Below are positions 720-33,925 of a DNA stretch of 34,086 nucleotides, one piece after another (positions within the stretch are counted from its first letter, which is position 1; every line of letters starts with the position of its first letter). The translations under genes and the position numbers were made by a program. The DNA is taken from assembly GCA_030154085.1 (NCBI GenBank), contig JASKKR010000024.1, positions 1 to 34,086 of the forward strand. Reading direction: 5' to 3'. Below the pieces are notes generated by a model that was given only the letters and a program-made list of their open reading frames with translations, was not told the DNA's origin and made no database searches. This DNA is from Candidatus Cloacimonadota bacterium. Its GTDB lineage: Bacteria > Cloacimonadota > Cloacimonadia > Cloacimonadales > Cloacimonadaceae.

Positions 720-790
720 AGTAGATTGTATTCATTTAGCATAATCTCTTGGCTTGCAGTCAAGCGAACTATAGATAAACGGAGTTGTTA

Positions 791-6409: not shown

Positions 6410-6531
6410 AAGCGTTGAATATATCCCAAAAAATGAATACAGACAATTCAGTTGGGATCAAATAGCGAAGGAGGAAACATGGTACTGCAGATAGTGCTAA
6501 TGGCGATAACTTTAGGAGTGGTGATTATGCC

Positions 6532-7767: not shown

Positions 7768-7792
7768 GAGATGAAATATTATTAATTGAAGC

Positions 7793-7876
7793 GATGATTT
7801 TGAAGATGGTGAGATTGTGGCAGGCTTTGCTCAGTCTTACTATCATGTTATTAAAATTCCAAAGAACAAGATATAG
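7793..7876 (+). other. Short protein-like remnant between genes
   Basis: The 127-bp gap before the giant gene contains a 27-codon open stretch ending in TAG at 7874. It reads like the end of a real protein (EIVAGFAQSYYHVIKIPKNKI) but has no start codon, and a TGA precedes it. It may be the tail of a gene lost by deletion. Confidence 0.25.
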
Positions 7877-7894
7877 ACAAAAGAAGGTAGGCAT

Positions 7895-10800: not shown

Positions 10801-13800
10801 TTCGGATGGGGAGTGGAGACCATTGACGGAAGCCTACAATCCCGCCAGAGTGATTGACATTCTATGTGAACAAGGTTGGGAGGCTGCTGAGGCTCATCAG
10901 GTAGTGAAATCTGTTTGCAGTGATATACCCATAATCGAACAACGTATATTCCCTATCCTGCGCCCATTATTACTGTCTCAATACATTGAAATCCCGGCTT
11001 TGACACGAAAGCAGTTTTCAAAGAGTATAGTAACTTCAGAGAGTTTAATTCTGAGCATTCAACAAATTATCAAGCTCGTAACAAACAACCCCTACAATGA
11101 TGAGTTTGAGATTTCTGATTTGATTCAGCAGTCAGACCTGCCAACAATAACAGGTTCTTCAAAATTGTGTGAAGCTAAGTTGCTAATCAACAGAGTCAAT
11201 CTGTCAGATAGGTTGTTGGGGCGTTTGATACCTAACCTGGTTGATGTCCCAAAGCTTAGTGATAGTATCGGTGGTATCACTCAAAAGGACGTTCAGGATG
11301 CTCTAAAATACCTCAGAGTTGACGAGATAACATCGGATTCCATTACACAGAAGTTAATATCTCAATTTGCTGAGCTATGGGATACGACTAAAACTAAGGA
11401 CGACAAATTTGAATTGTTGGTTTTCATTGAAGATCAAGATGCATTTGATGACCTTCGAGATGTTATAAGTACAATCCCTATAATACAAACCCAGGCCAAG
11501 AAAGAAACTTGGGCTGAACCGACAGAAGCGCTTACACCGGATTTAGCTAGTTTAAATCCTCCCTTGATTTCAGAAACAGAACTCCCATCCAATGATGTTC
11601 CTGACAAGATTATAGCATTGTACAGGAAGATTTGTGGGATTAACTCATTTTCTTTGGTTTTTCCACAGATACTATGCCGATTGGCTTCAGGTAACAAGTC
11701 CACAAGAATCTCTGAAGTGTATAACTGGTTAAGTAGCCTATTAGATACAAAGAGAATAAGTACGGATGAGTTGACCGACTGTCTGAAGACCAATAAATGG
11801 GTTCTGGCAAACAAAGGTGGCACAGAAAATTATCTGATGCCGAAAGAAGTTTTGATCTGTGATGCATCTTCTATCTTGAAACACCACTTTTCCGTGCCAG
11901 CCCTACCCATTCCAGATAATCTGATAAAGCTGGACATGGGATTCCTACGTTCGCTGCCTGAGACTCCTGATGACCTTCGCGGTGTATGCCAGGCGATATT
12001 GGAGTCTAGTACAACTGATGAGGCTTCTTACATCGCTTTGTATAAAATGATTGCAAAACTACTAACCGTTGACGAGTTAAAAAAAATCTGGTTAGAAGAA
12101 GCCAGCAATAATCCTCTTATATTGACGTTTAGGGAGAAGAATAGGTTCAGTAGACTTTACGGGCTCTTTATCGGTAATGATGAATACAATGATGATTTAA
12201 CAAGTAACTTACTATGCCTAAAGAACACTGAACTATCCAAGATAGTTGAAAACCTGTATTTGAAACTGGGCGTTGAGACTCTGCCTAGTATTCGCCATCT
12301 CTATTACGCCATATCGGAATTTGAGGAAAGAGGAGACCCCAAAGAGTATCGCAAATTGGTCGATCTCGTTACAAAATTCGTAGATACGGACATCTCTGAA
12401 GGATCCATAAAGCTTGACAGACTGAAAGTCAAGACTTTAGCAGGGACTTACAAAGAGATATCCAGATGCTATAATGCACCTTTGCTAATTACAAGTGGAT
12501 CAGTTAACGAGGGACAAGGGGCTCTGATCGATATCAATGATGCATCTACCAGGAAGTTGGTTGATTGGATACAAAAAATCGAGCCTTATTGCCTAAAAGA
12601 ACTTCGGTATGCTGCTGATTACTCGATACAAAGCCAGGATGATCCAGACCTTTTACAGCATTACGAAGCTGTACTTGATGCATGGGTGCAGCTTCTATCT
12701 GACTTAAACAGAGAGGATTCTCTGCTCATTGAAAAATTCAATGATCAGAACATAGGCATAGAACCAATCGAGATCAGGATTAAAACTGCTACTAACATTG
12801 AAATCAATGCAATTGCAGGAAACACAAAGGTAAAAATTAAATCAAATGACCAGAATTGGTTCTGTAGCTCAGAGAGAAACAGTGGTATCATAATCATAAA
12901 ACCATCGCCTGCTATAGATTACAATTTTATTGACACGGCTATCACGGAAGAACTACTTTCCCAGCTTAGAATAGATACAGCCAAAGATGAATATAAAAGT
13001 GCTATTTCAGTTCTACAAGAATACTTAGAGCGGCCTTCTTCAACCCTTAGAAGAATATCAAAAGAAAAGCAGGAAGATCTTCTATCCCTTTACAAAAATG
13101 AGGTTGCAGACCCTGAGTTCAATGAAAAATTTGAGAGATATAGAACATCTGCTAAGAAAGTACAGAAGCGCCTCAAAGATGAACTTTTGAGTATCGCTTC
13201 GGGAAACTACCTTAACGAAAGGAGAAAAACTATACTGGGGCATGGCTACGATAAGAATTCCATTATTGCAGAGCTCCTTCAAAATGCAGAAGATGCCTAT
13301 AAACAAGCTAATCTACTTGGGATGGAAATACCTGAGGTTCCTTACTTCTCAATCCTTGTATCAGAGAACTCAGAAATTAAACTGATATCGGTTGAATACC
13401 AAGGCAGACCTTTTAACTACTATAAACATCATGGTAAGGCAGATATATCTTTTAAACAAGACATCGAAGGTTTACTAAGATCATCAGGAAGCTTTAAACC
13501 CCATGCAAACAAAGGTGCTGATCCATCAAATGCGGCAATAGGTAAGTTTGGATTAGGTTTTAAATGCGTATATCTTATAACTGACAGTCCCGTTATTCAC
13601 TCCGGTCACTGGCATTTCAAGATCAATCATACCTGCATACCTGAAGAGATCGCTCCCCCAGAGAATTGGTCGCCTAAGAAAACGAGAATTGAGCTACCTA
13701 TAAAAGCTTGTGATATCCCCAATGATATTAATGATATTAATGTTGACTCCATCTGGAAATTGCTGCCATTTCTGCATTTAATATCTGAAATCAAATTTGT

Positions 13801-15973
13801 TAATAATGAAGAAACGAGCCTGATAACCAGAATTGAAAAGCCAGTCCAGTCCATCGACGACATAGAAATCACTGACAACGTAATCATAGTTAACGATTTT
13901 TCCGAATGCAGATACTATAAGATTCGCCATCAACATGCCCAGTTAGCTTTACTTTTGGATGAGAAAGAAAAGCCTCTAAGATGGCTATCTAAGTTTGATA
14001 ATGACTGTTATTCATATCTTCCGCTCACTAGTAGGTTGGATTTCGGTTTTGCTGTATCAAATCAATTCAGCATACAATCCGGCAGAACACATCTTCTTAA
14101 GGATGAGGGAAACACTACCCGTAGCGATGAAATAAAACAATTGGTTTTGCCTCTACTGAAATATCTTATAATCATGTACGCAGACAATATAGGCTTCTGG
14201 GAAGGCTTTTGGGAAGTGTTCAAGTTTGAAAATATCAGTCCAGAGACGGAGCGTATAAAAAGAGACATAGCTGAATCATTAACGAGTTCAATGCAAAAAC
14301 TCCCGATCATTCCTACTATGACCAGTTTGGTAAGCAGAACTGATTGTAATAAGATATTTTATTTCTCCGATGAGATTTTGTCATCAGTTAGAGAAGTAAT
14401 TTTGGAAAGCAGTATTAGTCTTAATGGAGTGGTTATAAACTCAGAAAATACTGCCAAAATAGAGACCATCTCCAGACTCAAGGCAATCTTGGAACTCTCA
14501 GAGCAAGATTACGACTTGCTTTTTGTTGAAGTTGATGTTAAAACTCTAATAAATGAATTCAAGTCGCAACCCATACTTGCTAAGATTCCTGAAATCTTGA
14601 ATGTTATTGTTGAAGATACAAATCCCACCCACTGGCATTTCAATACAGATTGGTTATCTGAATGTAGGGTCCTGATAGACGGTGATGAAGGGTTTGATTT
14701 CCCAGCTAATCTGTATATGCCATCTATAGTGGATTTAGAATATTTACCAAAAGATAAAATACAAAAGATATCGAGTCACTACAACGAAAAGGCAATTGAA
14801 CTTCTTTCAGATAGCGGGCTAAAGGCACAGCCGGATGAATCAGAGTTGATAGATTGGATTTCGAGTAAGAAGTTATTGTTAGATCAATGCATAGACTTAA
14901 TCAGATATCTATCTAGAGATCATAGGTATGCTGACTTTATTGACATAAAAGAAGGTATCCAGAGCGAATGGATTCCCTACAATGGGAGTTTTATCACTCC
15001 AAAGTTACTCATTGAACAAGACTCATGTTTTGAATCTCTGATAGCAGATAGTGTTTATTGCTCTTGGTTAGGTATACTTAGTGAACACCAACAAGAGCAG
15101 GTGTTTGTAGATGAAAGTAAACAGATTGATACAGAAGCAGTTTTGACCAAGATTTCTAAATGGTGGGCAAAAGAATCCGAGAGGAAGATTCCTGAATACA
15201 ACAACATAGTATATGCTGATGATCACGGGCTCGAGAATATAGGAGACCCAAAGGAGTCAGATGAATGCAAATCGGACTGGCTCAAGTTATTATTACTGGG
15301 TTCCCTGCACGCTATGGGAAGAGCCAAGATTGAACAGCATAGAGAATACATATCTAAATGTATCAAGTCTGGCATGTTCAATATGGGCTTAAGTCACAAA
15401 GAACGTGAGGACAGATGGTTAAATTCGATGCTGGAGATAATCGATAGTCCAAACGATAATCAACAATACTATCATTGGATTGGTTTCACCTGGGTTAGGT
15501 TTTTCCAGTTTAACAGATGGCTGGACGATTATATATCTGTGTTTCAAGATATCAACAAGCATAAGAAATCAATGCCTCTTGAAACTTTAAGGAATCCCAG
15601 ATCAAATCCGAGTTATTCAGGTACAGGCATAGAGCCACCATCGTTGGAAAAAGCGCTAAGCACGGTTGGAATGAATTTTGTACTTAGAGAACTGGTAAGG
15701 CATGAGGTCATTAAGAACGATGTAATATATAGTAAGTGCTTCGTCCCAACCAGAAACATTAGGAATCTGTTCATTGAATTGTCAAATGGCACTGAATTTG
15801 AATCATCTGACGAAATCATGGAATTTTTATCAGAAAACATGCCAGATATGGATGTAACATTTGGTAATTGTTTCGACATTCCATTCCTGATGATTCTAAG
15901 AGACAAAGAACTGCAACATAAATTGATAGATGAAGATCTAGATCTCTCTTTGGAGGATGAGTATGACATATAA
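7895..15973 (+). CDS. Giant sacsin-like protein with two GHKL ATPase domains
   Basis: The 2692-residue protein starts at an ATG preceded by AGAAGG. The N-terminal domain matches the sacsin/Hsp90-type GHKL ATPase: N-box ELLQNADDAG (48-57), an N-N-A segment in LLVRNNAIF, and glycine motif GRFGIGF (126-132) followed by NSVYFLTDNPVIFS. A second copy lies near the middle: ELLQNAEDA (from 1793), YQGRPFN, and GKFGLGF (1883-1889) with KCVYLITDSPVIHS. The second copy lacks the usual H-N before GRPF, so its ATP binding may be altered. The roughly 1500 residues between the domains and the C-terminal 700 have no domain I can name. Sacsin-like proteins act as chaperone-type ATPases; a defence role here is inferred from context. 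The stop overlaps the helicase start by 11 bp. Confidence 0.9.
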   Translation: MDTNHSDMETPEIGKAGGQEFSIVRSIKTFLEQMAEGSAKPAPTVLKELLQNADDAGATEIEITLDARVLPKQWTPYDLLLEPSLLVRNNAIFKSKEELEHRDKGDFEALLDVAGGHKTSDSVAAGRFGIGFNSVYFLTDNPVIFSRDEIHFLDLLHHFPFKGKNGWIFTLEEFPAEYGKSAGAIKNIIEICFPKTVLIQDTIGEMAHKKAMYKQSVFRLPIRTKHQASETLSDLTFKNEDIKNLFNEMIDEAPRSLLFLKTLNRIIFSRLDTTDKKTTVAEISITPNPPEFGEFLSYLQEEKDYTTEAIQRVIQVKIDGADQNLPFKIWHRIDFTNPTLADNRKLLEGSDKAVPWVSIAVPGSKEAMTIDGNSNPNWRVFLPLLEEGPCGCLFSGAFFVGPSRQRLDYKTDEGILKTKWNQTLVREALVPLFCEKSIEIPEVAESILANDPKAYLSLFPGKVRNKEAKNLSDYTQTCFQTTENIWFVRVPDLWGNEIDIWKGSQEFTIERVPEWLFKYKQCFEHLSNPNRRFVTESLGRALADRSDVQEYSPDIIEAVLRDKDAIDVVDLDKLWSRYAKNVDNTTSQNLNGLLAFTDYDSGALIEYDDEKLFIVVPKNFSDPVFSLVKSLKAGFSDVCWISETGLANETKNFSDLQNIHRPSHSTILELLRRIDIDDHKAIELKNNDLEILIDFLVERKTAELVDLKLGFLIKIASNKEKFASRKSVFIRTTSPTKDDDAFWNVWFKSHFSELDPHVAKQIRRLINAHPHIIDMIKTSQISLVEATSSHGIDILIKAIMADKSLIEELATSINSPKEKANARRVSEYIIERAMNQWNDWDEEKQNYILDLPIHRAVDGKYISLKADEVYWLQSRDSADLDAPITLKDRPILNPQSQFVNEFYANTLKIEYNGRLSIIKQALKQIGLDNVDNQALLAYIVKYYQSVIDTYPDEVSELKELLLAANIVLCSDGEWRPLTEAYNPARVIDILCEQGWEAAEAHQVVKSVCSDIPIIEQRIFPILRPLLLSQYIEIPALTRKQFSKSIVTSESLILSIQQIIKLVTNNPYNDEFEISDLIQQSDLPTITGSSKLCEAKLLINRVNLSDRLLGRLIPNLVDVPKLSDSIGGITQKDVQDALKYLRVDEITSDSITQKLISQFAELWDTTKTKDDKFELLVFIEDQDAFDDLRDVISTIPIIQTQAKKETWAEPTEALTPDLASLNPPLISETELPSNDVPDKIIALYRKICGINSFSLVFPQILCRLASGNKSTRISEVYNWLSSLLDTKRISTDELTDCLKTNKWVLANKGGTENYLMPKEVLICDASSILKHHFSVPALPIPDNLIKLDMGFLRSLPETPDDLRGVCQAILESSTTDEASYIALYKMIAKLLTVDELKKIWLEEASNNPLILTFREKNRFSRLYGLFIGNDEYNDDLTSNLLCLKNTELSKIVENLYLKLGVETLPSIRHLYYAISEFEERGDPKEYRKLVDLVTKFVDTDISEGSIKLDRLKVKTLAGTYKEISRCYNAPLLITSGSVNEGQGALIDINDASTRKLVDWIQKIEPYCLKELRYAADYSIQSQDDPDLLQHYEAVLDAWVQLLSDLNREDSLLIEKFNDQNIGIEPIEIRIKTATNIEINAIAGNTKVKIKSNDQNWFCSSERNSGIIIIKPSPAIDYNFIDTAITEELLSQLRIDTAKDEYKSAISVLQEYLERPSSTLRRISKEKQEDLLSLYKNEVADPEFNEKFERYRTSAKKVQKRLKDELLSIASGNYLNERRKTILGHGYDKNSIIAELLQNAEDAYKQANLLGMEIPEVPYFSILVSENSEIKLISVEYQGRPFNYYKHHGKADISFKQDIEGLLRSSGSFKPHANKGADPSNAAIGKFGLGFKCVYLITDSPVIHSGHWHFKINHTCIPEEIAPPENWSPKKTRIELPIKACDIPNDINDINVDSIWKLLPFLHLISEIKFVNNEETSLITRIEKPVQSIDDIEITDNVIIVNDFSECRYYKIRHQHAQLALLLDEKEKPLRWLSKFDNDCYSYLPLTSRLDFGFAVSNQFSIQSGRTHLLKDEGNTTRSDEIKQLVLPLLKYLIIMYADNIGFWEGFWEVFKFENISPETERIKRDIAESLTSSMQKLPIIPTMTSLVSRTDCNKIFYFSDEILSSVREVILESSISLNGVVINSENTAKIETISRLKAILELSEQDYDLLFVEVDVKTLINEFKSQPILAKIPEILNVIVEDTNPTHWHFNTDWLSECRVLIDGDEGFDFPANLYMPSIVDLEYLPKDKIQKISSHYNEKAIELLSDSGLKAQPDESELIDWISSKKLLLDQCIDLIRYLSRDHRYADFIDIKEGIQSEWIPYNGSFITPKLLIEQDSCFESLIADSVYCSWLGILSEHQQEQVFVDESKQIDTEAVLTKISKWWAKESERKIPEYNNIVYADDHGLENIGDPKESDECKSDWLKLLLLGSLHAMGRAKIEQHREYISKCIKSGMFNMGLSHKEREDRWLNSMLEIIDSPNDNQQYYHWIGFTWVRFFQFNRWLDDYISVFQDINKHKKSMPLETLRNPRSNPSYSGTGIEPPSLEKALSTVGMNFVLRELVRHEVIKNDVIYSKCFVPTRNIRNLFIELSNGTEFESSDEIMEFLSENMPDMDVTFGNCFDIPFLMILRDKELQHKLIDEDLDLSLEDEYDI

Positions 15974-18662
15974 AACAGGAAACAAAGTAGAGCATAGCAA
16001 GTTTGGTCTTGGGACGATACAAGTTGCCACAGATTCGACAGCTATAGTAAGATTCGAACACGGCATTGAAGAAGTCTTGATTTCAGAACTTGAGTTGGTC
16101 AGAACTATTTTTGACGCTATTTCAGATCAAGCTTGGTCTCCACCATTGAATGTTTTATGTTTGGGTGTATCTTCAGCTATCATTTCTGTGAATGATACAT
16201 GGGGTCTGTTTTCCCGCTCCAAGATAACTTTATTACCACATCAATTGTGGGTTTGCCGAAAAGTGATTTCAAATTGGCCTGCAAGATGGCTGATAGCAGA
16301 TGATGTAGGGCTTGGCAAAACAATTGAAGCAGGGCTCATTCTCTGGCCTTTGCTGTCCAGAGAAAGGGTGAAGAGACTATTAATTATCTGCCCTAGTTCT
16401 CTTGTTGAACAGTGGCAGTATCGAATGCGAACTATGTTTGACATTCGATTAGTAAAATACACTGTCGAAAGTGATACTTCAAAAAGTGACTTCTGGAACT
16501 CAAATAACGCTGTAGTTGCATCGATCCAAACCCTGAGGGTTGATAACAAGAATCGCCATAAGCGAATGCTTGAAAGTGAAGCATGGGATCTGGTAATTGT
16601 AGATGAAGCTCATCATCTTAATGCAGATGAAAGTCGTGGACCTACCCTCGGATATCAGCTTCTGTATAAATTAGAGACTAATAGTAAAATTGTTTCAATG
16701 CTCTTCTTCACTGGCACACCCCATAGGGGAAAGGATTATGGGTTTTTAGCTTTACTTAGGCTTTTAAGACCAGACCTATTCAACCCCAAAGAGCCTATGT
16801 ATGACCAGCTAAAGAATTTATCAAGTACCGTCATAAGGAACAATAAACAGAATGTTACTGATTTGTCTGGTAAGAAACTTTTCAAACCACAGATCGTTAT
16901 ACCAAAAACATTTAGATATACTGAAGAAGAAACGTATTTCTACGAGCAACTAACAGAATTTATCACTAGCGGAAAAACCTATGCATCAAGTTTGGATCAA
17001 TCAAATCAAAGATTAGTAATGTTAGTTTTGATATGTATGCAGAAATTGGCTTCAAGCTCCATTGCAGCAATCAAAAGAGCTCTGGAGAATCGACTGGAAA
17101 ACCTTAAAGAACTTGATAATAAGTTAGCTCAGCAGCGCCAAGAAAGTCGAATAAATGATCCGGATTCAGATGTATATGACGATGACGAGAAAAGTGTTCA
17201 AGAGGAAAAACTCGCAAGTGAAGCAATACTCAACTTAATTAAAGATGAGGAAAAATGGCTCAAGCTTCTTATTGCTGCAGCTGACAGAGTTCAAACTGAA
17301 ACTAAAATCGAACTGATAGGGGAGATACTCGAACACGAATACAAAAATAGATCTGTATTACTTTTTACTGAATATAAGGCAACTCAGAGCAAAGTAATCA
17401 ATTTACTAATTAAGCGTTATGGTAAGGATTCTGTAGTATTCATAAATGGTGATGAGATGCTTGACGAGATCGATTTCGGAGATGGGATAAAACGAAAATT
17501 ACGTATAACAAGAGCAGAGGCGGCAGAGAGGTTCAACGATGGCAGAGCTAGGTTCTTAGTTTCTACAGAAGCTGCAGGAGAAGGAATTGACCTCCAAGAA
17601 AACTGTTTCTCCATGATACACATAGATTTGCCTTGGAATCCAATGAGACTTCATCAAAGAGTCGGCAGGTTAAATCGTTATGGACAAAAAAAACAGGTAG
17701 AGGTTATCACTCTGCGCAATCCCGATACAGTAGAAGCTCGTATATGGGATAAGCTTAATACAAAGATTAATTCTATTATGCAAGCATTCAGCAGTTTTAT
17801 GGATGATCCAGAGGATTTGTACAGCCTAATTCTGGGAATGACTCCCCAAAGTATGTTTACAAATTTATTTTCGGATACTGAATCTGTAACAAAAGACAAT
17901 TTTTCAAAGTGGTTCGATGATAAAACCGCTACATTCGGAGGTGAAGATGTCATTGATACTGTTAAACAGCTATTTGGTAACTGTGCTAAGTTTGATTACC
18001 AACAAGCAAAGCTCGATATCCCACGGTTGGATTTACCTGACCTGAAGCCATTCTTCGAGTCTATGCTGATCTTCAACCGAAAGCGGAGCAAAGAGAATGA
18101 AGATGGCTCAATTAGTTTCAAAACACCAGATGAGTGGAAAGATGCCATCGGAATTCAAAAGGAATACAACGATGTTGCATTTGAGCGGAATGGAGTCGTT
18201 AAACGCAAACTTGACAAAATTTTTGGAGTTGGGCATGTGGTGGTTGATAAGGCTATCAAGCAGGCTATGAACATCCAAGATAGCATTTGCGTAGTATCTT
18301 ACAATGATCTTTCAGCTCCATTGTATCTAATCAAAGCCAGAGATCGAATAACGAATACCGGAGAATCAATCAGGTTCCTAGTGTTTGGTTTAACAAAGGA
18401 TTCTATTGGTTGGAAGGTCTTGAAAGACTGGGAACTGATAAAGGTTCTCAATCCACTATTGTTTAGGTATCAGTTGCATAGGAAATCATATTATCCTGAT
18501 ATCCCAACCGAAGACATGCAAAAAGAGACTCAAGAAGTTATTCAGTATTTTGCAGAGACGGATATGTATCTTTCACTTCCTTTTAAAGTTCCTCACATTG
18601 AAATACTGACCGTGGTACTTCCAGGTAAAGAAAACGAATCCTCTAGACCTTATCAGCTATGA
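15963..18662 (+). CDS. SNF2/RapA-type DNA translocase
   Basis: This superfamily-2 helicase-like ATPase has 899 residues. I place the start at ATG 15963, with GGAGG six bases before it; the earlier ATG at 15957 abuts that site. Residues 1-45 (TGNKVEHSKFGLGTI...VRFEHG) resemble the small beta-barrel modules on RapA and UvrD-type proteins. Motif I is DDVGLGKT (Lys119), motif II DEAHH (214-218) and motif III FTGTPHRG, with a charged insertion near 385-425. Motif VI is QRVGRLNRYGQ (565-575), the usual SNF2 form. The C-terminal 280 residues have no nuclease motif that I can see. It should pump or remodel duplex DNA. Tight coupling to the GHKL giant and DUF3800 suggests the three act together. DISARM DrmD is a comparable defence SNF2 protein, but no DISARM drmA, drmB or drmC partners are present. 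Confidence 0.93.
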   Translation: MTYKTGNKVEHSKFGLGTIQVATDSTAIVRFEHGIEEVLISELELVRTIFDAISDQAWSPPLNVLCLGVSSAIISVNDTWGLFSRSKITLLPHQLWVCRKVISNWPARWLIADDVGLGKTIEAGLILWPLLSRERVKRLLIICPSSLVEQWQYRMRTMFDIRLVKYTVESDTSKSDFWNSNNAVVASIQTLRVDNKNRHKRMLESEAWDLVIVDEAHHLNADESRGPTLGYQLLYKLETNSKIVSMLFFTGTPHRGKDYGFLALLRLLRPDLFNPKEPMYDQLKNLSSTVIRNNKQNVTDLSGKKLFKPQIVIPKTFRYTEEETYFYEQLTEFITSGKTYASSLDQSNQRLVMLVLICMQKLASSSIAAIKRALENRLENLKELDNKLAQQRQESRINDPDSDVYDDDEKSVQEEKLASEAILNLIKDEEKWLKLLIAAADRVQTETKIELIGEILEHEYKNRSVLLFTEYKATQSKVINLLIKRYGKDSVVFINGDEMLDEIDFGDGIKRKLRITRAEAAERFNDGRARFLVSTEAAGEGIDLQENCFSMIHIDLPWNPMRLHQRVGRLNRYGQKKQVEVITLRNPDTVEARIWDKLNTKINSIMQAFSSFMDDPEDLYSLILGMTPQSMFTNLFSDTESVTKDNFSKWFDDKTATFGGEDVIDTVKQLFGNCAKFDYQQAKLDIPRLDLPDLKPFFESMLIFNRKRSKENEDGSISFKTPDEWKDAIGIQKEYNDVAFERNGVVKRKLDKIFGVGHVVVDKAIKQAMNIQDSICVVSYNDLSAPLYLIKARDRITNTGESIRFLVFGLTKDSIGWKVLKDWELIKVLNPLLFRYQLHRKSYYPDIPTEDMQKETQEVIQYFAETDMYLSLPFKVPHIEILTVVLPGKENESSRPYQL

Positions 18663-19537
18663 TCAAATCTAGTCACGTAGCCTTTTTTGATGAATCGAAC
18701 TGGAACAAGGGCAGATTCAGATCAATTGCAATGGTCAGTATGAAATATGACAACTATTTAGAGCTTAGATCTCAGTTGTGTGCTATAGCATCGAGAAAAC
18801 ATAGCGAAATGAAGTGGAATAAGATAGATAAAGAGACCGGAATGAATGTTATTGGTTTTGTTTTTGAGAACCTTCATAAAATTAGAATTGACGTTCTAAC
18901 GTGGGATATTGAGGATAGCAGACATCAGAGCGTGATCGGAAGGGATGACGAACAAAATCTGCAACGGCTATATTTCCGGCTTATGATAACTGTCATGCGC
19001 GATAGATGGCCAAATCATGCTACTTGGACACTATACCCTGATGAGCACAGCTGTATCTCATGGGAGACCATAAAAGCATATCTTGATGTCCACAGTTTGG
19101 ATACCCAGCCTATCCTACTTGATATACTCCCGTTTAATTTTTCATTCACAAGAAGATACACAAATAAGGGGATTACCCCGCTAAAATCACACCATGAGCC
19201 TTTCATACAGTTAGCAGATTTCTTTGCAGGCATTGCGTCATATTCATTCAAGTGTTTCAATAAAGTGGCACTCTGGGAAGAAGCAAACACGACACAAACA
19301 ACTATTTTTGAAAGGATAGGATTAGAACCTACAACTTTAGAACTATCAAGAAATGATCGAGATCGCATTCCCTTAGTTTGGGAGATAAAAAGACGGGCAT
19401 CTCAGCAGAAATTGGGGCTTTCTCTAAAAAGTACATCAGGGTTATTAACATGGGATCCTGTAAGCCACTTGAACTTTTGGCTTTATCAACCCCAACACGA
19501 GCATGACAAAGCACCAACAAGACTAAAACCTAATTAA
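18659..19537 (+). CDS. DUF3800 family protein, predicted RNase H-like nuclease
   Basis: The 292-residue protein shows the DUF3800 signature: an acidic FFDES at residues 9-13 (Asp11, Glu12) on the first strand, and a C-terminal helix HHEPFIQLADFFAGI containing Asp187. These acidic positions are thought to form an RNase H-like metal site; activity in the family is largely predicted. The start ATG overlaps the helicase stop as ATGA, so translation is coupled. DUF3800 genes are frequent in bacterial defence islands, often beside helicases. Here it is the last gene before a hairpin. It is a candidate effector nuclease or a processing partner for the SNF2 translocase. The tail after about residue 210 is less conserved in appearance. 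Confidence 0.85.
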   Translation: MIKSSHVAFFDESNWNKGRFRSIAMVSMKYDNYLELRSQLCAIASRKHSEMKWNKIDKETGMNVIGFVFENLHKIRIDVLTWDIEDSRHQSVIGRDDEQNLQRLYFRLMITVMRDRWPNHATWTLYPDEHSCISWETIKAYLDVHSLDTQPILLDILPFNFSFTRRYTNKGITPLKSHHEPFIQLADFFAGIASYSFKCFNKVALWEEANTTQTTIFERIGLEPTTLELSRNDRDRIPLVWEIKRRASQQKLGLSLKSTSGLLTWDPVSHLNFWLYQPQHEHDKAPTRLKPN

Positions 19538-20992: not shown

Positions 20993-21020
20993 TTGACAGT
21001 ATGTCAATTCTTTTTACAGT
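20993..21020 (+). promoter_or_regulatory. Probable sigma70-type promoter of the regulator-dinG-murB operon
   Basis: A perfect -35 TTGACA (20993-20998) is followed after 16 bp by TACAGT (21015-21020), four of six matches to the -10 consensus. A T7 tract lies just upstream of the -35. The start codon at 21056 is about 30 bases after the predicted start of transcription. Confidence 0.45.
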
Positions 21021-21055
21021 TGTCTTGTAAACAAAAGATTCAGGAGAGTGAAATC

Positions 21056-24000
21056 ATGCCTGAGAAATTGTGTCAAAAGATGCATGAATTCGTGACTGAC
21101 CGGTTTGATTTGAACCGCATACTTGAGCCCTTGAAGGAGAACAAGCAAAGTCATTTGTTTGAGATCATTGGCAAGTCTGGGTCCGGGAAGTCATATCTCA
21201 TCACGCCGATCATAGCTTCATTGAAGGGAAGTTTTGAGAAAATCGTGTATTTTAGTCCGCATCCAGTTTATTTCAATCACTTCCCGGAAATAATGGATAT
21301 CTTGACCGGTTTGGATGAGGAAGAGCAGTTCGAGATCTATGAAGAGCATTATGCCAAGTATCACACTGGCAAGAAATATGACTTTTTTTACTATCTCACA
21401 GAGCTGCTTTTGCAGCGTGACAAATTGCAGCCTATGGTTCTATTGATAGATGATGCAGATGTACTGGATGAATATAGTCGGGATTTTTTGCAATATCTGG
21501 TTCAATATGCTGCTGATGTCTCGATCCAAGTGATTGCCCTATCGCAAAGCAGGGTTTTTCCTTTTTCGATAGTTGAGAATTTACCTAGTTTAGGGGCAGA
21601 GGATATTCAGAAATTATTGGGCAATATATTCCCAGGTACGGAGATGTCCTATATTTCGGAGGGAGAGATTTTGAGCAAGATATCCGGCGGGAATCTGATG
21701 ATTCTGGAAAAGATATTCTCTGAGATCCAGCAGGCAAAGCCCAAGGGAGGATTTGATCTTAGTCCCTATCTGGAAAAGAAATATGATCCTCATGAGATTT
21801 ACTATCAGAATCTGGCAGATCTTACGGAGAGTCAGCTTGAGCTGCTATCGACCATATATATCCTTGATGGGATGAAAAGCGAAGATATCGCAGAGGCTTT
21901 GGGACGGCGGGAGGTGAACAGTGATATGAAGGCTATGGCAGAGCGAGGGCTTTTAGCTGTATTGAAAGACAGCTGCATGATCCAAAAGAAGCTTTCCTTC
22001 CGTCAATGGTTGCAAGAAGATCCATCCCGATTCCCCGCAGCACTGCAGAAGAAGCTATTGACATATTTGAAAAAGAAAGGCGTTGGGAAACAGATTCAAT
22101 TGCGGCTACATATGCTTAGCCAAGTCAATAATCCTGAGTTATTTACTGAAATGCTGCATCTTTTTGGAATTCTCAGCGATGCACATGGATGTCTACAGAT
22201 CAATCAGTATCTTTTGGAAATCAGTAAGACACCAAAGGAGAGGCTGTCGATAATGCAGCGGATAGCAGAGTGCTATGCTAATCTTGCTCAGATAGATCAA
22301 GCGGTGGATTACTATCGGCAATGTCTACATATCTGCACAGAGAATAGCCTGCCGGCAGAGGAGGTAGTATATTATCTTGCAAGCAATCTTTTCGCGGTTA
22401 ATTCCAGCAATTTTGCTTTGGAGATCATCAAAAAATATTCTCCAGCCACAATAGATGAATATTGGAAAGCTCGGATTCTCCTGCTCAAGGCAGATATATT
22501 AGCTGAGAATGAGGAATTTAACGAGGCTTTGGAGACGATCGAGACGGTCTTACACACGATGAGTGCTATAGATGATCAAGTAAAGCGCTACATGGTGCAA
22601 GCAGAGGCAAAAAAGATACGCGGCAAGATCCACTATTATATCAATGAATGGGACCAAGCGGAGGAATCTTTTAAGGAAGCAGAGACACTGTATAATTTGG
22701 CAGACGACCACTCTGGTAAATCCGCGATCTATAATAACTTGGGTGTACTATATATGTTTCAAGGTGTGTGGGACAAGAGTGAGAGCTATTTTCTGAAAAG
22801 CCTTGCTTTAGAGAAGGATTATTACAATCTCAATGGCATCTCAGTCTGCTTTAATAACCTGGGCGGACTCATGGATGACAAGGGGGACGCTGCGCGCTCG
22901 CTCTACTACCTCGAAGAAGCGCTCAAGATTCAGAAGTTGCTTTCAGAGCCATATAACATCACCAATATCTACAACAACATTGGTGTGACTATGATGGATC
23001 ATGGGAAATACTCTCAAGCGGAAGAAGCACTCAAGAAATCACTTGAGACAGCTACAAACTTTGGTTTCTTTCGCAATACGATCGCTTCTTTGAATAATTT
23101 GGGTGCCCTAAGCTTTAAGAAAGGTGATTGGAAAGAATCCATTAAATACTATGAGAAGGCAATCCGCCTTTCCGAAGAGAATGGCTTTGAAGAAGGACTT
23201 CTGAGGTCTTTCAATAATCTTGGTGAGGTCTATGAGAAGAGTGGCGAGTTAAATCTGGCATATGATCTGTATTTCAAGGGGCTAGAGCTGTTACCTTCGA
23301 TAAATGATGACTATATCAAAGCAGAGCTCTATGGCAATCTAGGCTCGGTGCTCACCAAACTACACAAGTTTAAAGAAGCATATCGCTATCTGATGGAAAG
23401 CTTTGACTTCTTCAAAGCACTTGGTGCACGTGACAAGATCATCGAAGGATGCCAAAATCAGGCATATTATTTCATCATGACTCACAATGCCGATAGTGCG
23501 GATTATTATCTGAGTGAAGCTCAGCGGTTAGCAACCGAACAGCATAATGATTTTGAGCAAGGCTGGACTTACTATTTGCGCGCTCTCCTAGAAAGGAAAA
23601 ACCTCGATAATGCCAAGGATTACCTAGATGCTGCGATCAAACATTTTGTGGCAAGCGGGGCAAATTATGAGTTATCTTTGGCGAACTATGAATTGGCAGG
23701 TGTGCTATTGGACATGCAGGAGTGGGAACAAGCGCTTCAGATTCTCAAAAACAACAAAAAAGTTATACAGCAATATGGCTCGATCAAGCTTTTGGAACAA
23801 AACGACATCCTCATGCAGCGCATCACGCGGGAATATTCTTCGCAAATGGAAGAAGCTAAATTTGAAGAAAATCTGCTCAACCAATTCTATGAAATCACTC
23901 AAAAGCTAAATACAATCACAGATCTGGATCTGATCATCGAACAGTCTTTAAGCAGTTTGATCGATATCTCTGAAGCTGATGGCGGCATCCTTTGTTTGCA

Positions 24001-25333
24001 CAATAGCGGAAATTTACCGGATACTTGGGAATATAAGATATTCAAAGGTTTTTCCCATGAAGATCCGGATTATGAACTGATGATGAATCTCATCAATGAA
24101 GTGCACAACGAAAACACTCTGAAGAATCTAAAGCAACCTCATTTTGCAGTAAACTATAACAATATTCTGCTTCTGCCGCTATCTATACGCAAGGATAATA
24201 TGGGAGTCGTGCTGCTCTTTTGTAAAAGCGGGTCACACTATTTCAGCGAACGCATCATTAACTTGATGAATGCGCTTTCAAATCAGATCATCGTGATCAT
24301 CGAAAACATACGCAGTGCAAATCTCGAAAAAACTCATGCAATTATCCGCGAAGAGCTTAACAAGGGGAACCTCTATGCAAACATCATCGGGAAAAGCCCG
24401 GAGATGCTCAAGATATTTGAGATCATAGAGAAAGTGAAGGACACTCCCACAACCGTACTTTTAGAAGGTGAAAGCGGGACAGGTAAGGAACTAATCGCCA
24501 GAGCCTTGCACTATAGTAGCAATCGTGCCAATAAGGCGTTTGTGGCACAATATTGTGGGGCTCTGCCCGAGACACTTTTGGAGAGTGAGCTCTTTGGACA
24601 TGTCAAAGGTAGCTTTACCGGAGCTGCATATGACAAGAAGGGGCTTTTTGAGATCGCGGATGGAGGGACTTTCTTTCTGGACGAGATCTCGGATATCAGT
24701 CAATCCACCCAGGCTAAATTGCTCCGGTTTTTGCAAGAAGGCGAGATTAAGCGAGTAGGTTCTACCAAAACTGAGAAGGTTAACGTACGGGTAGTCTGTG
24801 CTACCAATGTCCCACTTTTGGAAAAAGTGGAGAATGGCGACTTCCGTTTGGACCTGTACTATCGCCTTAATGTGATTCGGATTCAGGTTCCACCTTTGAG
24901 GAATCGTCCCGGAGACATTCCGCTGCTGGCGATTCATTTCTTGGATAAATATAACAAACGCATTGGCAAGAACGTTCTCGGCTTCAGTTCTGAGGCTATG
25001 AAGACTTTGGAAAACTACACTTTCCCAGGGAATGTGCGTCAATTGGAGAATGAGATTGAGCGAGCTGTCACTCTGGTCGAAGATAATACGTTTATCACGC
25101 CGGCGGACTTTTCGGAGGAAGTGCGTAAACATATGGAGCAGAGCCGCACGATTGATCTCCTCAGCACCAAGACGAATCTCAAGGAAGCGGTCGAAGAGCT
25201 AGAACGCAAGATGATCCATGCTGCCCTCAAACGCTATAGTTGGAATCAAACTCAAGCTGCACGGGAACTTGGTCTTTCCCGGCAGGGTCTGATCAAGAAG
25301 ATGCAACGCTACAATCTCATGCGGGATGAATAA
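21056..25333 (+). CDS. Large ATPase-TPR-GAF-sigma54 activator
   Basis: This 1425-residue regulator starts at ATG 21056 with AGGAGAG seven bases upstream. Domains in order are as follows. A STAND/AAA-type ATPase has Walker A GKSGSGKS (39-46) and Walker B LLIDDAD (Asp132-133). A TPR array covers about 395-880, with many N-N-L-G repeats. A GAF-like sensor lies near 940-1085. The sigma54-interaction AAA+ domain has GESGTGKE (1138-1145), the loop GSFTGA (1185-1190; GAFTGA in many relatives) and FLDEIS (Asp1209-Glu1210). The protein ends in a Fis-type HTH (QTQAARELGLSRQGLIKKM). It should open sigma54 promoters in response to a ligand or partner sensed by the N-terminal half. There is no phosphoreceiver domain. 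The stop overlaps the next start (TAATG). The target promoters are not identifiable here. Confidence 0.95.
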   Translation: MPEKLCQKMHEFVTDRFDLNRILEPLKENKQSHLFEIIGKSGSGKSYLITPIIASLKGSFEKIVYFSPHPVYFNHFPEIMDILTGLDEEEQFEIYEEHYAKYHTGKKYDFFYYLTELLLQRDKLQPMVLLIDDADVLDEYSRDFLQYLVQYAADVSIQVIALSQSRVFPFSIVENLPSLGAEDIQKLLGNIFPGTEMSYISEGEILSKISGGNLMILEKIFSEIQQAKPKGGFDLSPYLEKKYDPHEIYYQNLADLTESQLELLSTIYILDGMKSEDIAEALGRREVNSDMKAMAERGLLAVLKDSCMIQKKLSFRQWLQEDPSRFPAALQKKLLTYLKKKGVGKQIQLRLHMLSQVNNPELFTEMLHLFGILSDAHGCLQINQYLLEISKTPKERLSIMQRIAECYANLAQIDQAVDYYRQCLHICTENSLPAEEVVYYLASNLFAVNSSNFALEIIKKYSPATIDEYWKARILLLKADILAENEEFNEALETIETVLHTMSAIDDQVKRYMVQAEAKKIRGKIHYYINEWDQAEESFKEAETLYNLADDHSGKSAIYNNLGVLYMFQGVWDKSESYFLKSLALEKDYYNLNGISVCFNNLGGLMDDKGDAARSLYYLEEALKIQKLLSEPYNITNIYNNIGVTMMDHGKYSQAEEALKKSLETATNFGFFRNTIASLNNLGALSFKKGDWKESIKYYEKAIRLSEENGFEEGLLRSFNNLGEVYEKSGELNLAYDLYFKGLELLPSINDDYIKAELYGNLGSVLTKLHKFKEAYRYLMESFDFFKALGARDKIIEGCQNQAYYFIMTHNADSADYYLSEAQRLATEQHNDFEQGWTYYLRALLERKNLDNAKDYLDAAIKHFVASGANYELSLANYELAGVLLDMQEWEQALQILKNNKKVIQQYGSIKLLEQNDILMQRITREYSSQMEEAKFEENLLNQFYEITQKLNTITDLDLIIEQSLSSLIDISEADGGILCLHNSGNLPDTWEYKIFKGFSHEDPDYELMMNLINEVHNENTLKNLKQPHFAVNYNNILLLPLSIRKDNMGVVLLFCKSGSHYFSERIINLMNALSNQIIVIIENIRSANLEKTHAIIREELNKGNLYANIIGKSPEMLKIFEIIEKVKDTPTTVLLEGESGTGKELIARALHYSSNRANKAFVAQYCGALPETLLESELFGHVKGSFTGAAYDKKGLFEIADGGTFFLDEISDISQSTQAKLLRFLQEGEIKRVGSTKTEKVNVRVVCATNVPLLEKVENGDFRLDLYYRLNVIRIQVPPLRNRPGDIPLLAIHFLDKYNKRIGKNVLGFSSEAMKTLENYTFPGNVRQLENEIERAVTLVEDNTFITPADFSEEVRKHMEQSRTIDLLSTKTNLKEAVEELERKMIHAALKRYSWNQTQAARELGLSRQGLIKKMQRYNLMRDE

Positions 25334-29848: not shown

Positions 29849-30102
29849 TATTTACCAGCTATTAGATCTCTCAGTTAGAACATCAAGTAAACTACTGAAC
29901 CCCACCATACTTTCATTTCATTGCCTCTTACTGCGTAAATCATTTATGGCGTTCTGCCTGGCTTCGCTCATCCTGCTTTATAGTCTGATTCATCAGTTAT
30001 TCCCCCCGTGCTTGCTCCAAAATCCGCTCTACTCACGTACTTTCGTGCAAAAGACTTGACGAAAAGTAAAGCATCAGAATCCTGCTTTTGAAGGAGCGAA
30101 GA

Positions 30103-31353
30103 ATGAAAGTAGACATGCTGATTATCAATGCCGTCAAAATTGCCACCATGACGTCAAATACAAATATCAAAGCCGGTAACGCCATGGCAGATGCCGGAGT
30201 CATTACAGATCAAGGGATTGCTATCCGAGACGGCGAGATCTTTGATATTTTGCCCAATCGTGACCTCATTCAAAAGTATCAGGCAGATGAGGTTCTGGAT
30301 GCCAAGGGTAAGATCCTCAGTCCAGGTTTTGTGGATAGTCACAGCCACCCCATTTTTGTCAATACCAGGGAAGCAGAATTTGCCATGCGTCTCTCAGGCA
30401 AAAGTTATGTTGAGATTGCTCTTGCTGGTGGGGGCATCCGGTCCAGTATTGATGCTGTTCGCAAAGCATCTGTAGACGAACTTGTCGAGCTTTCCCTTCC
30501 TAGAATTCGCCGGATGATTGCCTTGGGCACAACTACTTTGGAGGCCAAAAGTGGATACGGTCTGAGTACAGAAAGCGAGCTAAAACAGCTCCAAGCTATC
30601 AAGATTTTAAATGAACAACTGCCCATAGACATTGTGCCTACCTTTCTAGGAGCCCATGAGTTTCCTGCTGAATATAAAGATGATCACGAATCCTACCTCA
30701 AAATCCTTATCCATGAGATGCTTCCCGCTGTCAAAGAGCAAGGGATAGCTGAGTTTTGCGACATCTTCACTGAAGCTCATGTCTATAGCATCGAAGAATC
30801 TCGTCGCATCCTCGAAGCTGCACATGAGCTGGGTTTTGGGCTCAAGATGCATGCTGATGAGATCGAAGCTATCGGTGGAGCAGAGCTGGCATCGGAAATG
30901 CATTGCATCTCTGCTGATCATCTTGGCTCTGCCTCGGATGAAGGTATTTTCGCTCTTAAAAAAGCTGGAGTGATTCCCACTCTTTTACCGGCCACCCTGT
31001 TTTCTCTACGCTCAAAGAGCTATGCCAGAGGACGATTTATGATAGATTCCGGACTGCCTGTGGCAATCGCTACGGATTACAATCCGGGTAGCTGCAATTG
31101 CGATAGCATGGCGTTTACCATGAGCCTTGCTTGCTTGCAGATGGGATTTAGCCCTGCAGAAGCTCTTGCCGCTGCCACTCTAAATGCAGCTGCAGCGCTA
31201 TCTCGTCAAGATAGCATAGGTTCGCTTCAGATTGGTAAAAAAGCAGATATCCTGATTTGGGATATCCCCAGCATAGATTTTATCCCCTTTCATATAGGAT
31301 CTTCTCATATAGACACCGTGATCAAGGACGGTCATGTCATTTATAAGGCATAA
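30103..31353 (+). CDS. hutI: Imidazolonepropionase
   Basis: HutI hydrolyses 4-imidazolone-5-propionate to N-formimino-glutamate, the third step of histidine breakdown. The protein has 416 residues from ATG 30103, with AAGGAG six bases upstream. It is an amidohydrolase with metal ligands in HSHPIF (His80, His82), HADEIEAIGG (His250) and ATDYNPG (Asp325), almost the same numbering as the Bacillus subtilis enzyme. Other family marks are SYVEIALAGGGIRSS, EAKSGYGLS (147-155) and AHEFPAEYK. No other hut gene is present in this window. A 254-bp gap with no supported gene precedes it, and the next gene follows after only 2 bp, suggesting cotranscription. Confidence 0.95.
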   Translation: MKVDMLIINAVKIATMTSNTNIKAGNAMADAGVITDQGIAIRDGEIFDILPNRDLIQKYQADEVLDAKGKILSPGFVDSHSHPIFVNTREAEFAMRLSGKSYVEIALAGGGIRSSIDAVRKASVDELVELSLPRIRRMIALGTTTLEAKSGYGLSTESELKQLQAIKILNEQLPIDIVPTFLGAHEFPAEYKDDHESYLKILIHEMLPAVKEQGIAEFCDIFTEAHVYSIEESRRILEAAHELGFGLKMHADEIEAIGGAELASEMHCISADHLGSASDEGIFALKKAGVIPTLLPATLFSLRSKSYARGRFMIDSGLPVAIATDYNPGSCNCDSMAFTMSLACLQMGFSPAEALAAATLNAAAALSRQDSIGSLQIGKKADILIWDIPSIDFIPFHIGSSHIDTVIKDGHVIYKA

Positions 31354-31355
31354 AT

Positions 31356-33671
31356 ATGGCGCTCAATAGCTATCGAATCTTGGACACTATCCACCACTCA
31401 CGTCGCTTTATACTCTATCGGGCTGAAGCGTTGAAAGACAATTCTATCGTATTGATCAAGACTCAAGACCCTACCCAGCTCAGAGATCAAACCCTGCTAA
31501 ATAGTCTCAAATGTGAAGCAGAAACTGCACTCGAACTCATCCATCCCAATATCCGTCGCAGTATTGGGTTCTTTAGTGAAGGTCTCTCAGGGTATCTTGT
31601 TGCAGAATATGTCCCCGGTATTTCGTTGGCTCAGTATCTATTACAAAATCCTGATGCTCCAAACCTACAGCAGTGCCTCCTCTGGGCACGAGATATATTG
31701 CATGCACTATATTATGCTGAGAAACGTGATATTAGACATTATAATCTTAATCCCTACAATATCATCATAGATGAAGCTGAGCGACTCAAGATTATCGGCT
31801 TTGGTAAAGACAAACGGGATCCGTGGAAGCACTCTGAAGGGAATATTAACTATCCTTTCCCAATGCTCTATGTTGCTCCAGAGATTTTCAAATCGTCTAG
31901 TCCGCATCCAAATTCTGATCTGTATTCTTGGGCAGTAATTCTCTATCAGATGCTCTGCCACAGCTTACCTTGGCGCTTGGATAGGTTCATCGGTCCTGAC
32001 GAGCAAAAACTGCAAAGCTTAAACGGGGGAGTTAGTATGCCTAGTGCAGAGATAGTGCCGGATTGGCTCTATAGCATCCTACTCTCTTGTCTCAAGGTAG
32101 ATCCCGATCAGCGGGTGCAAAGTATATCCGAATTGATCGAGATCTTCATGCAAGAATATCCAGAGATAGCTTGGCAATATGAAGAACCTGCAGAGCTTTC
32201 TGCTCCGATTGAGGAACCAGTTCCTGAAGGTAATGCTCAGGATAGTGTACTTTGGGGCACAGATTTGCCAGTTTCGGAAGAGCTTCCTCAGAACAACATA
32301 GACGAGATAAAAATCTCAGCTCAAGAAAAGATTCCCGAGGATGCTATAGAAACGCTGCAAGAGCGCCCGCAAGAGCTTTTGCCACAAGAGCATAATCACG
32401 ATGATTTAGTCACTCTTGATGATACCGAACGTCTTCTCACTGAGCAACATCAGGATAATTTATATTCTCCGGAGGAAAAGCCGTCTGCCGAGGCACCGGA
32501 AGCTCTGATTTCAGGTAATTCCAGCGATGAGCCCACTACGCCAAAAGAAGAAGCTCTCACGGATACATCCATCAATGAGCCTCCCAAAGTTGCTGATGAA
32601 ATTACTTCTAAGGCTCCTGAGGTTGATCAAGCCAAAGTGGATCTTCCAGATAAGAATCAGCAAAGCCCACATATAGCTGCTGGTCCAGATAATACAATCA
32701 AATCATCTGCCACACCAAACGTTACAAAGTCAATTAAGATAGCAATTCCTTCCCAAGAAGGTTCCTCCGAGGAGCCAAAGGATCTGAAAACTATGAAAAA
32801 TATCTTTGTCTCTCTCATGATCCTAAGCATCATCATTGTTGGCTATCTTTTTGTGGATCATTACTTCCTCAAAGAACAACCTCAGCCTGAGTTAAAGATG
32901 GAAGAAACCGACATTGATTTTGAGGAAATAACTGAGCCCTTGCTCTCCCAAAACATTCCTATTGAGATGATATGGGTACCGGCTGATACCTTGATCATGG
33001 GTAGCATTAGTCCTGAAGCTGGTGATGATGAATTCCCTCTGCTTACTATTCCGCTGAAAGGATATATGATCAGCCCTACTGAGATTACACAAGCTCAGTG
33101 GATGATGGTCTCCACAGACAATCCATCACTGTTTGTAGGTAATGACCGTCCGGTGGAAAATATCTCCTTCTATGATGCTGTGGAATTTTGCAATGCTAAA
33201 AGTCTTAAAGATGGACTCACCCCTGCTTACGACTTCCGTGGTACTGATATAATTTGCGATTTTAATGCCAATGGCTACCGCTTACCCACAGAGGCAGAAT
33301 GGGAATTTGCCGCCAAAGCCGGAGATGGTAGGAGCTTTAGCTTATACAGCGGTTCGGATGATGCTGACAAAGTCGGTTGGTATTCTGCAAATTCCGACGC
33401 TCATAGCCATCCTGTTGCAATGAAAGAACCAAATTCCCTTAGCATCTACGATATGAGTGGAAACGTCTATGAGTGGGTCTGGAATTGGTATGCCCCATAC
33501 AGCTATCGCGTGAGCAGCCTTTTTAGTGGTCCTCAAGATGGCACTGACAAAGTTATCCGGGGCGGATCTTGGTATCATAATGAATCTCTTATGCGCAATA
33601 CTGCCCGCAACTATGCCAAACCTTTCGTGAAAAATAGCTATATCGGTTTTAGAGTCGTAAGAAGCAGATAA
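31356..33671 (+). CDS. Pseudokinase-TM-FGE-like (formylglycine-generating fold) membrane protein
   Basis: The 771-residue protein begins with a serine/threonine-kinase-like domain (about 1-270). The VAIK-type lysine is present (Lys35), but the glycine-rich loop is not recognisable. The HRD aspartate is replaced in RHYNLNPYN (Asn130), and DFG reads GFG (Gly148), so it is probably inactive as a kinase. An acidic, proline-rich linker leads to one membrane segment (about 483-505). The C-terminal domain (about 530-771) is FGE-sulfatase/SUMF1-like: MIWVPADTLIMGS, GYRLPTEAEWEFAAKAG, YDMSGNVYEWVWNW and RGGSW (735-739). The cysteines near that last motif, used by true formylglycine-generating enzymes, are absent, so this domain likely binds rather than oxidises. 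Kinase inside and FGE-fold outside suggests a surface sensor or scaffold. Confidence 0.88.
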   Translation: MALNSYRILDTIHHSRRFILYRAEALKDNSIVLIKTQDPTQLRDQTLLNSLKCEAETALELIHPNIRRSIGFFSEGLSGYLVAEYVPGISLAQYLLQNPDAPNLQQCLLWARDILHALYYAEKRDIRHYNLNPYNIIIDEAERLKIIGFGKDKRDPWKHSEGNINYPFPMLYVAPEIFKSSSPHPNSDLYSWAVILYQMLCHSLPWRLDRFIGPDEQKLQSLNGGVSMPSAEIVPDWLYSILLSCLKVDPDQRVQSISELIEIFMQEYPEIAWQYEEPAELSAPIEEPVPEGNAQDSVLWGTDLPVSEELPQNNIDEIKISAQEKIPEDAIETLQERPQELLPQEHNHDDLVTLDDTERLLTEQHQDNLYSPEEKPSAEAPEALISGNSSDEPTTPKEEALTDTSINEPPKVADEITSKAPEVDQAKVDLPDKNQQSPHIAAGPDNTIKSSATPNVTKSIKIAIPSQEGSSEEPKDLKTMKNIFVSLMILSIIIVGYLFVDHYFLKEQPQPELKMEETDIDFEEITEPLLSQNIPIEMIWVPADTLIMGSISPEAGDDEFPLLTIPLKGYMISPTEITQAQWMMVSTDNPSLFVGNDRPVENISFYDAVEFCNAKSLKDGLTPAYDFRGTDIICDFNANGYRLPTEAEWEFAAKAGDGRSFSLYSGSDDADKVGWYSANSDAHSHPVAMKEPNSLSIYDMSGNVYEWVWNWYAPYSYRVSSLFSGPQDGTDKVIRGGSWYHNESLMRNTARNYAKPFVKNSYIGFRVVRSR

Positions 33672-33682
33672 GATTAACTTTC

Positions 33683-33925
33683 ATGATCTTTGGATATCCT
33701 CTTTGGCTAATATCCAGATGTTGGGTGGTTTTTAGTATCTTGCTCTATAACTTGAAGGGGCAGGTAGTTCGCAGCTTCGTAAATAGCCATGACCAGCCGG
33801 GTTACTATCAAGTATCCTGGGATGGTAGAGATTCCGGGGGACGAGTTGTGAGCACAGGAGTCTACTTCTATCGCATGGTAAGCGGAAGATATAGATCCAC
33901 CAAAAAGATGGTGCTGGCAAAGTAG
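33683..33925 (+). pseudogene. Remnant of a FlgD-like/secretion-tail C-terminal domain
   Basis: The last 60 codons read like the terminal module of secreted FCB-group proteins: LYNLKGQVVRSFVN, GYYQVSWDGRD, GRVVSTGVYFYRM, ending TKKMVLAK. Such modules normally close proteins of several hundred residues with a signal peptide. Here only about 20 unrelated codons precede it and there is no ribosome binding site at the ATG (33683). It is best read as the tail of a gene whose body has been lost. It starts 11 bp after the preceding gene. Confidence 0.6.

Follow-up and report, generated by a model that had tools for sequence, protein, structure and literature searches.

What does a protein do that joins a kinase-like domain, through a membrane, to a domain with the fold of formylglycine-generating enzymes (FGEs), and why does its gene follow hutI? 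Such a gene lies on the forward strand of contig JASKKR010000024.1 of a Candidatus Cloacimonadota bacterium, within the 34,086-nt stretch of DNA analysed here (the window). It is an open reading frame of 771 codons with no in-frame stop, in which Pfam places a Pkinase match at residues 21–255 (E 3.4e-26) and an FGE-sulfatase match (PF03781) at residues 537–769 (E 9.6e-40; 137.3 bits for the whole protein against a cut-off of 23.3). Bacterial pseudokinases are described in a 2025 review as largely unexplored experimentally (PMC12599244), and Cloacimonadota are described in passages of PMC8542988 as able to form a major part of anaerobic digesters. The parts of the gene are as follows.

31356–33671, + strand: pseudokinase–linker–transmembrane–FGE-fold protein, 771 aa
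31356–32159, + strand: Hanks-type pseudokinase domain, aa 1–268, presumed cytosolic
31458–31460, + strand: K35, the β3 lysine, kept
31743–31745, + strand: N130, in place of the HRD catalytic Asp
31797–31799, + strand: G148, in place of the DFG Asp
32160–32783, + strand: Pro/Glu-rich linker, aa 269–476, probably disordered, fast evolving
32784–32873, + strand: single transmembrane segment, aa 477–506, from hydropathy
32964–33662, + strand: FGE-sulfatase (C-type-lectin-like) domain, aa 537–769, probably extracytoplasmic
33558–33608, + strand: RGGSW region, aa 735–751, the site of the Cys pair in FGE enzymes, here without Cys

Domain layout and the kinase-like half

The single hydrophobic segment at residues 477–506, lying between the two Pfam domains, agrees with the first-pass annotation, which had described a pseudokinase joined through a membrane to a cysteine-less FGE-fold domain. 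Exactly one such segment is present in 39 of the 41 sequences that carry both domains in one open reading frame, the window included; the remaining two have a second, weak hydrophobic segment inside the kinase part. The linker between kinase and membrane is about 200 residues long and is only 14–25% identical to the linkers of 16 relatives (paralogue excluded and the frameshifted locus L034 left out).

Relatives were gathered by a scan of GTDB genome contigs, which gave 17 loci, all Cloacimonadota or Cloacimonetes, by a search of 124 genomes of the phylum, and from fetched regions. For the window's own family, this gave an alignment of 47 rows that represents 46 genomes, window included; two rows are pieces of one genome (G015), and two genomes (G002 and G037) are represented without the N-terminal part. 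Gaps are set aside in the counts given below, and the list of invariant positions was drawn from the relatives with L023 and the paralogue row L017 left out.

The equivalent of the HRDxKxxN catalytic loop reads H128-Y129-N130-L131-N132-P133-Y134-N135, with N132 in place of the catalytic-loop Lys, and G148-F149-G150 is the equivalent of DFG. The profile of the relatives aligns HxNLNP and GFG with HRD and DFG of S. aureus Stk1, and an AlphaFold2 (AF2) model places them likewise, so that a misplacement of the catalytic loops is ruled out and the earlier assignment of the two lost aspartates to Asn130 and Gly148 is confirmed. It had been proposed that homologues be aligned to see whether the losses are fixed, and they are. 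None of 45 rows has Asp at the HRD position, which is Asn in 35, Gln in 4, Leu in 2 and another residue in 4, and none of 46 has it at the DFG position, which is Gly in 45 and Asn in 1. Asn occupies position 132 in 41 of 45 rows, and Phe occupies position 149 in 45 of 46. Because both aspartates are absent from all rows of the family, their loss is probably older than the family, and the substitutes are conserved in their own right. The domain thus has the Hanks-type fold with its β3 Lys, lacks the HRD and DFG aspartates of an active kinase, and shares the loss of these essential motifs with its relatives, as expected of a pseudokinase.

That the kinase fold is kept, as had been suggested, is well supported: the AF2 model, built with 16 sequences, has a pLDDT of 91.4; its best solved match is M. 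tuberculosis PknB (Z 28.2, rmsd 2.3 over 253 residues), and Foldseek matches it to S. aureus PknB with an E-value of 3.7e-17. Among the 41 two-domain sequences, the nine closest pairs gave dN/dS values of 0.07–0.16 for the pseudokinase, 0.08–0.15 for the FGE half and 0.17–0.64 for the linker. These values rule out a decaying gene and indicate strong purifying selection on each of the two folded halves. One relative's pseudokinase gene is frameshifted (UBA5553; L034/G002). The signalling or scaffold role envisaged in the first-pass annotation fits both the selection on the two halves and the losses fixed across relatives.

We also considered a MADS6 defence kinase and rejected it: the NF047741 equivalog scores 82 bits against a cut-off of 460, and the PADLOC mad6 match (124.9 bits) covers only residues 21–278. 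Two further kinase pieces lie at contig ends of the same genome (G000:C42:15440-15829 and G000:C24:9-335), and may each be half of a single gene that the assembly has broken in two.

Linkage to hutI and the paralogue behind ileS

Two gene pairs bear on the question of a partner, one of them in the window and the other elsewhere in the same genome.

30088–31353, + strand: hutI, imidazolonepropionase, likely start ATG 30103 (TIGR01224 equivalog, 443.9 bits against a cut-off of 298.15)
G000:C1:93035-95071 (L101:8036-10075): zinc-ribbon pseudokinase–transmembrane–FGE paralogue, 679 aa, 15 nt behind ileS

The hutI stop codon lies 2 nt before the pseudokinase ATG. Across the phylum, hutI is present in 103 of 124 genomes, 45 of them among the 49 genomes of the window's family, and in all 45 of these the pseudokinase gene is directly downstream. 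The pair occurs in the ten genera of the family. In 43 fetched loci, the gap between the two genes ranges from −14 to +27 nt, with a median of 1 and with 12 loci at −4 nt (start codons having been chosen by a script next to the homologous start). Two of the 45 cases need qualification: in G002 adjacency was read from L034, where the frames of hutI and the pseudokinase gene overlap and the latter is frameshifted, and in G043 hutI is split over two contigs, with its 3′ part adjoining the pseudokinase gene (L043). The contig-scan loci L018–L034 are largely records of the same family genomes, and were not recounted in the 45. For comparison at the same loci, no gene family occurs directly upstream of hutI in more than 6 of 15. 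Outside the family, 13 hutI loci have seven co-directional downstream genes, all different (an ABC transporter-type ATPase, MlaD, AHSA1, C25 peptidase, GMP synthase, TPR and SLBB), five convergent ones and one contig end.

We propose, with an even chance of being right, that in one Cloacimonadota family the protein serves as a transmembrane receptor or scaffold without catalytic activity. The FGE-fold domain would lie outside the inner membrane and, like its C-type-lectin-like relatives, bind a ligand; the pseudokinase, held on a long and flexible cytosolic tether, would act by binding a partner, without phosphorylating it. That partner is most likely encoded in the same operon. HutI is the first candidate, on gene order alone, because among the nearby genes only hutI stayed adjacent throughout. 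The outcome could be a coupling of extracytoplasmic conditions to histidine use, or the holding of HutI at the membrane. Histidine degradation has been reported for Cloacimonadota in passages of PMC13082233 and PMC8542988.

The choice of HutI is guilt by association, and two observations speak against it. Genes for hutH and hutU are present in the window's genome, on other contigs than hutI. In addition, a comparison of 43 family HutI rows with 13 others (the window's HutI having been started one codon late) found no family-specific domain or insertion and only six family-specific columns, mostly conservative; a family-specific HutI interface is therefore rejected, none being visible.

The paralogue provides a second case. 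It and the 771-aa protein are the only two FGE-domain proteins found in the genome, which is rated 99.75% complete. The kinase domain of the paralogue is far more degenerate (32.8 bits against a cut-off of 31.7), and a single hydrophobic segment is found in 30 of 30 relatives. Paralogue matches occur in 44 of the 49 family genomes; among the best 30 loci of these 44 genomes, two of them at or near contig ends, ileS lies directly upstream and in the same direction in all 28 that have upstream sequence, with gaps of about −6 to 51 nt. In the window's genome the upstream gene matches TIGR00392 with 972 bits. The pairing holds in the seven genera among the loci tested. In a tree of 56 chosen FGE rows, each paralogue forms one clade (support 100/98 and 100/100); the two clades may or may not go back to one fusion, the node that relates them having a support of 72/49. 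A protein with a type IX secretion system (T9SS) sorting tail is encoded two genes behind the paralogue.

The ileS pairing may cut both ways: the pseudokinases may serve the enzyme encoded upstream, or genes of this type may simply sit behind well-expressed genes. Since the paralogue follows ileS and not a hut gene, genes of this type may have a general tendency to stand behind an enzyme gene, with no functional pairing involved. It is quite possible, though short of an even chance, that the protein is indeed a transmembrane pseudokinase receptor or scaffold and that its place behind hutI reflects shared transcription, fixed once in the family ancestor and unrelated to histidine. Such an origin would suit a paralogue that is equally fixed behind ileS (28 of 28), two upstream genes with little in common except amino acids, hutH and hutU located elsewhere, and a HutI that carries no family-specific feature. 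It is harder to reconcile with the variability of the other neighbours (any one gene recurs upstream of hutI in at most 6 of 15 loci), and with the persistence of the hutI pair in the family's ten genera and of the ileS pair in the seven tested.

The stronger version of our proposal is that the two ancient paralogues are dedicated membrane partners of HutI, in histidine breakdown, and of isoleucyl-tRNA synthetase, in charging, each encoded in the operon of its enzyme. We consider this improbable. If it were true of both pairs, extracytoplasmic binding domains would control amino-acid catabolism and protein synthesis without phosphorylation; if either pair were real, there would be phosphorylation-free transmembrane control of amino-acid metabolism. 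A family-wide pseudokinase with a fixed neighbour reduces the question of its partner to one binding experiment, and the ileS paralogue offers an independent second pair for the same idea.

Elsewhere in the window, a defence-like island occupies positions 785–19537. It encodes type I HsdM and HsdS, a GmrSD-type protein, a protein of 411 aa that matches no Pfam family, a sacsin-domain protein of 2692 aa (PADLOC TmtA), a DrmD-like helicase (974 bits) and a DUF3800 protein; no hsdR was noticed there. A regulator of 1446 aa, encoded at positions 20993–25333, has a sigma-54 activation part and a middle region that is TPR-like; we guess that it also has an ATPase at its N terminus and a part resembling GAF. 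Behind the pseudokinase gene, in the third frame at 33740–33925, lies a short open stretch, LYNLKGQVVRSFVN...GVYFYRMVSGRYRSTKKMVLAK, which to our eye resembles a T9SS-type sorting tail without a body and is possibly a gene remnant.

Nucleotide-site residues and the FGE-fold half

The first-pass annotation had also suggested an internal nucleotide-binding module, which the alignment does not bear out. K35 and E54 are kept, as is N135, but the Gly loop, which had gone unmentioned, reads HHSRRF and is thus lost together with the DFG Asp, and position 33, where we place the adenine-pocket Ala, has this residue in only 1 of 44 rows. The last of these speaks against ordinary ATP binding; nucleotide may conceivably be bound in a Mg-free manner. 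CASK, which has GFG, carries out Mg2+-free phosphotransfer, and HER3, which has HRN, does so weakly. That the present domain still uses a nucleotide, perhaps in a phosphate transfer of the Mg2+-free kind, nonetheless seems to us quite unlikely, since the conservation of K35 (44 of 44 rows), E54 (40 of 45) and N135 (35 of 45) and the PknB-like fold are set against a lost Gly loop, an adenine pocket without its Ala and the absence of both aspartates from every row.

In the FGE half, RGGSW is followed by YHNESLMRN, with H741 and M746 at the sites of the FGE-enzyme cysteines, a pair that we take to correspond to human C336/C341. These columns, placed by the shared RGGS block and by the Cys spacing that we presume for FGE enzymes, contain no Cys in 41 of 41 rows, in keeping with the earlier observation that the RGGSW region lacks the FGE cysteines. 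The protein therefore has the PF03781 domain of a formylglycine-generating enzyme without the active-site Cys pair. Other cysteines are kept (C612 in 41 of 41 rows, C634 in 40 of 41).

The best solved relative of this half is TvpA (2y3c; E 6.6e-48 with a profile), and PorK is also among the best (E 8.6e-23). In the profile alignment, the TvpA stretch RGGSWAGSADYC has one Cys at the pair site and the PorK stretch RGGSWKDVARF has none. Exported FGE proteins of the phylum's other families contain 15 RGG[SN] stretches, one of them (in L144) a second match due to chance; none of the 15 has the first Cys, and 13 have the second. Because an incomplete pair is common in PF03781, as in TvpA, PorK and these phylum proteins, its absence here is no sign of decay, and nothing in the sequences compared indicates that the FGE half was once a formylglycine-generating enzyme. 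The view that both enzymatic halves are degenerate thus stands for the kinase, whose losses are fixed, and falls for the FGE half. Similarly, the retention of both folds is borne out by the model only for the kinase; the model of the FGE half is poor (pLDDT 59.7) and its structural matches merely repeat the sequence result, so we base the assignment of this fold on profile matches.

Twenty loci outside the family contain 22 FGE open reading frames, none of which matches the pseudokinase profiles; the pseudokinase–FGE gene is accordingly restricted to the family among the matches listed for the 124 genomes and these 20 fetched loci. Eighteen of the 22 begin with a hydrophobic export-type segment, and three of the other four are cut at the end of the locus. 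By analogy with these starts, the FGE domain of the 771-aa protein is probably extracytoplasmic. The C-terminal RGGSW...GFR stretches of the outside-family proteins (L134–L152) differ strongly between proteins and presumably resemble the variable regions of diversity-generating retroelements (DGRs); DGRs may act on exported FGE proteins in this phylum.

The likeness to PorK raises another role, in the envelope portion of a type IX-like secretion apparatus, where the protein would stand in for the FGE-fold ring protein PorK/GldK. The genome does encode a SprA translocon (493.8 bits), the 771-aa protein and its paralogue are its only FGE-domain proteins found, and a sorting-tail protein lies near the latter, in addition to the match to PorK itself. 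However, the GldK equivalog TIGR03525 scores 87 bits against a cut-off of 350, and, whereas PorK is an outer-membrane lipoprotein, the membrane anchor here lies about 30 residues before the FGE domain, with a kinase on the opposite side. A GldM search gave no match in the window's genome, the same search having matched no control either. We regard this role as very improbable.

Finally, a DGR target like TvpA can be dismissed even though TvpA, the closest solved relative, is a DGR variable protein and passages of PMC7517822 place kinase–CLec fusions among cyanobacterial DGR targets and their paralogues, since the RGGSW region is similar between species and the window's own genome (42 contigs, rated 99.75% complete) contains neither a match to the reverse transcriptase profile RVT_1 (PF00078) nor a template-like copy of the 3′ end of the gene beyond chance matches of 14–15 nt.

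Relation to known systems

TvpA and PorK/GldK share with the 771-aa protein an FGE fold without the full Cys pair. The TvpA chain has 294 aa and is not joined to a kinase, nor, to our knowledge, is PorK. Cyanobacterial kinase–CLec proteins, as described in passages of PMC7517822, likewise combine a Ser/Thr kinase with a C-terminal domain of the C-type-lectin fold; they are described as kinases, many of them diversified, whereas here there is a pseudokinase, no DGR was found and a membrane segment lies between the two domains.

The 2025 review of bacterial pseudokinase families covers ActPs1-3, GLW, CP1, DYD and DLHK; its main text contains none of the words FGE, formylglycine, sulfatase and Cloacimon (PMC12599244). 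As described there, MviN, of the ActPs3 family, is likewise a membrane-linked bacterial pseudokinase and works by recruiting a partner; it has VALT at the Lys motif and no HRD or DFG, whereas the present protein keeps the Lys, has Asn for the HRD Asp and GFG for DFG, and carries an added FGE domain. ActPs2 also replaces the HRD Asp with Asn and commonly has a C-terminal transmembrane segment, but it has Arg for the Lys and mostly lacks DFG (PMC12599244). The listed DLHK example has GFG, but the HRD Asp is kept in this family, the example is without the Lys, and there is no transmembrane segment (PMC12599244). The combination of a kept Lys with Asn and GFG is found in neither ActPs2 nor DLHK as they are presented in that review.

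No description of the 771-aa pseudokinase–FGE protein was found in open PMC text. Its parts are of known kinds; as far as our searches show, the motif combination, the pseudokinase–transmembrane–FGE architecture in one family and the fixed operon pairings are undescribed in that text. Among the nearest known designs is that of the PASTA kinases of the PknB/StkP type, in which a Hanks fold is connected by a tether and one membrane helix to an extracytoplasmic binding domain. The 771-aa protein has the same architecture, and PknB is its best fold match. It does not reach the cut-off of the PknB_PASTA equivalog (100.6 against 450 bits) and differs from these kinases in having lost the catalytic aspartates and in carrying an FGE fold instead of PASTA repeats.
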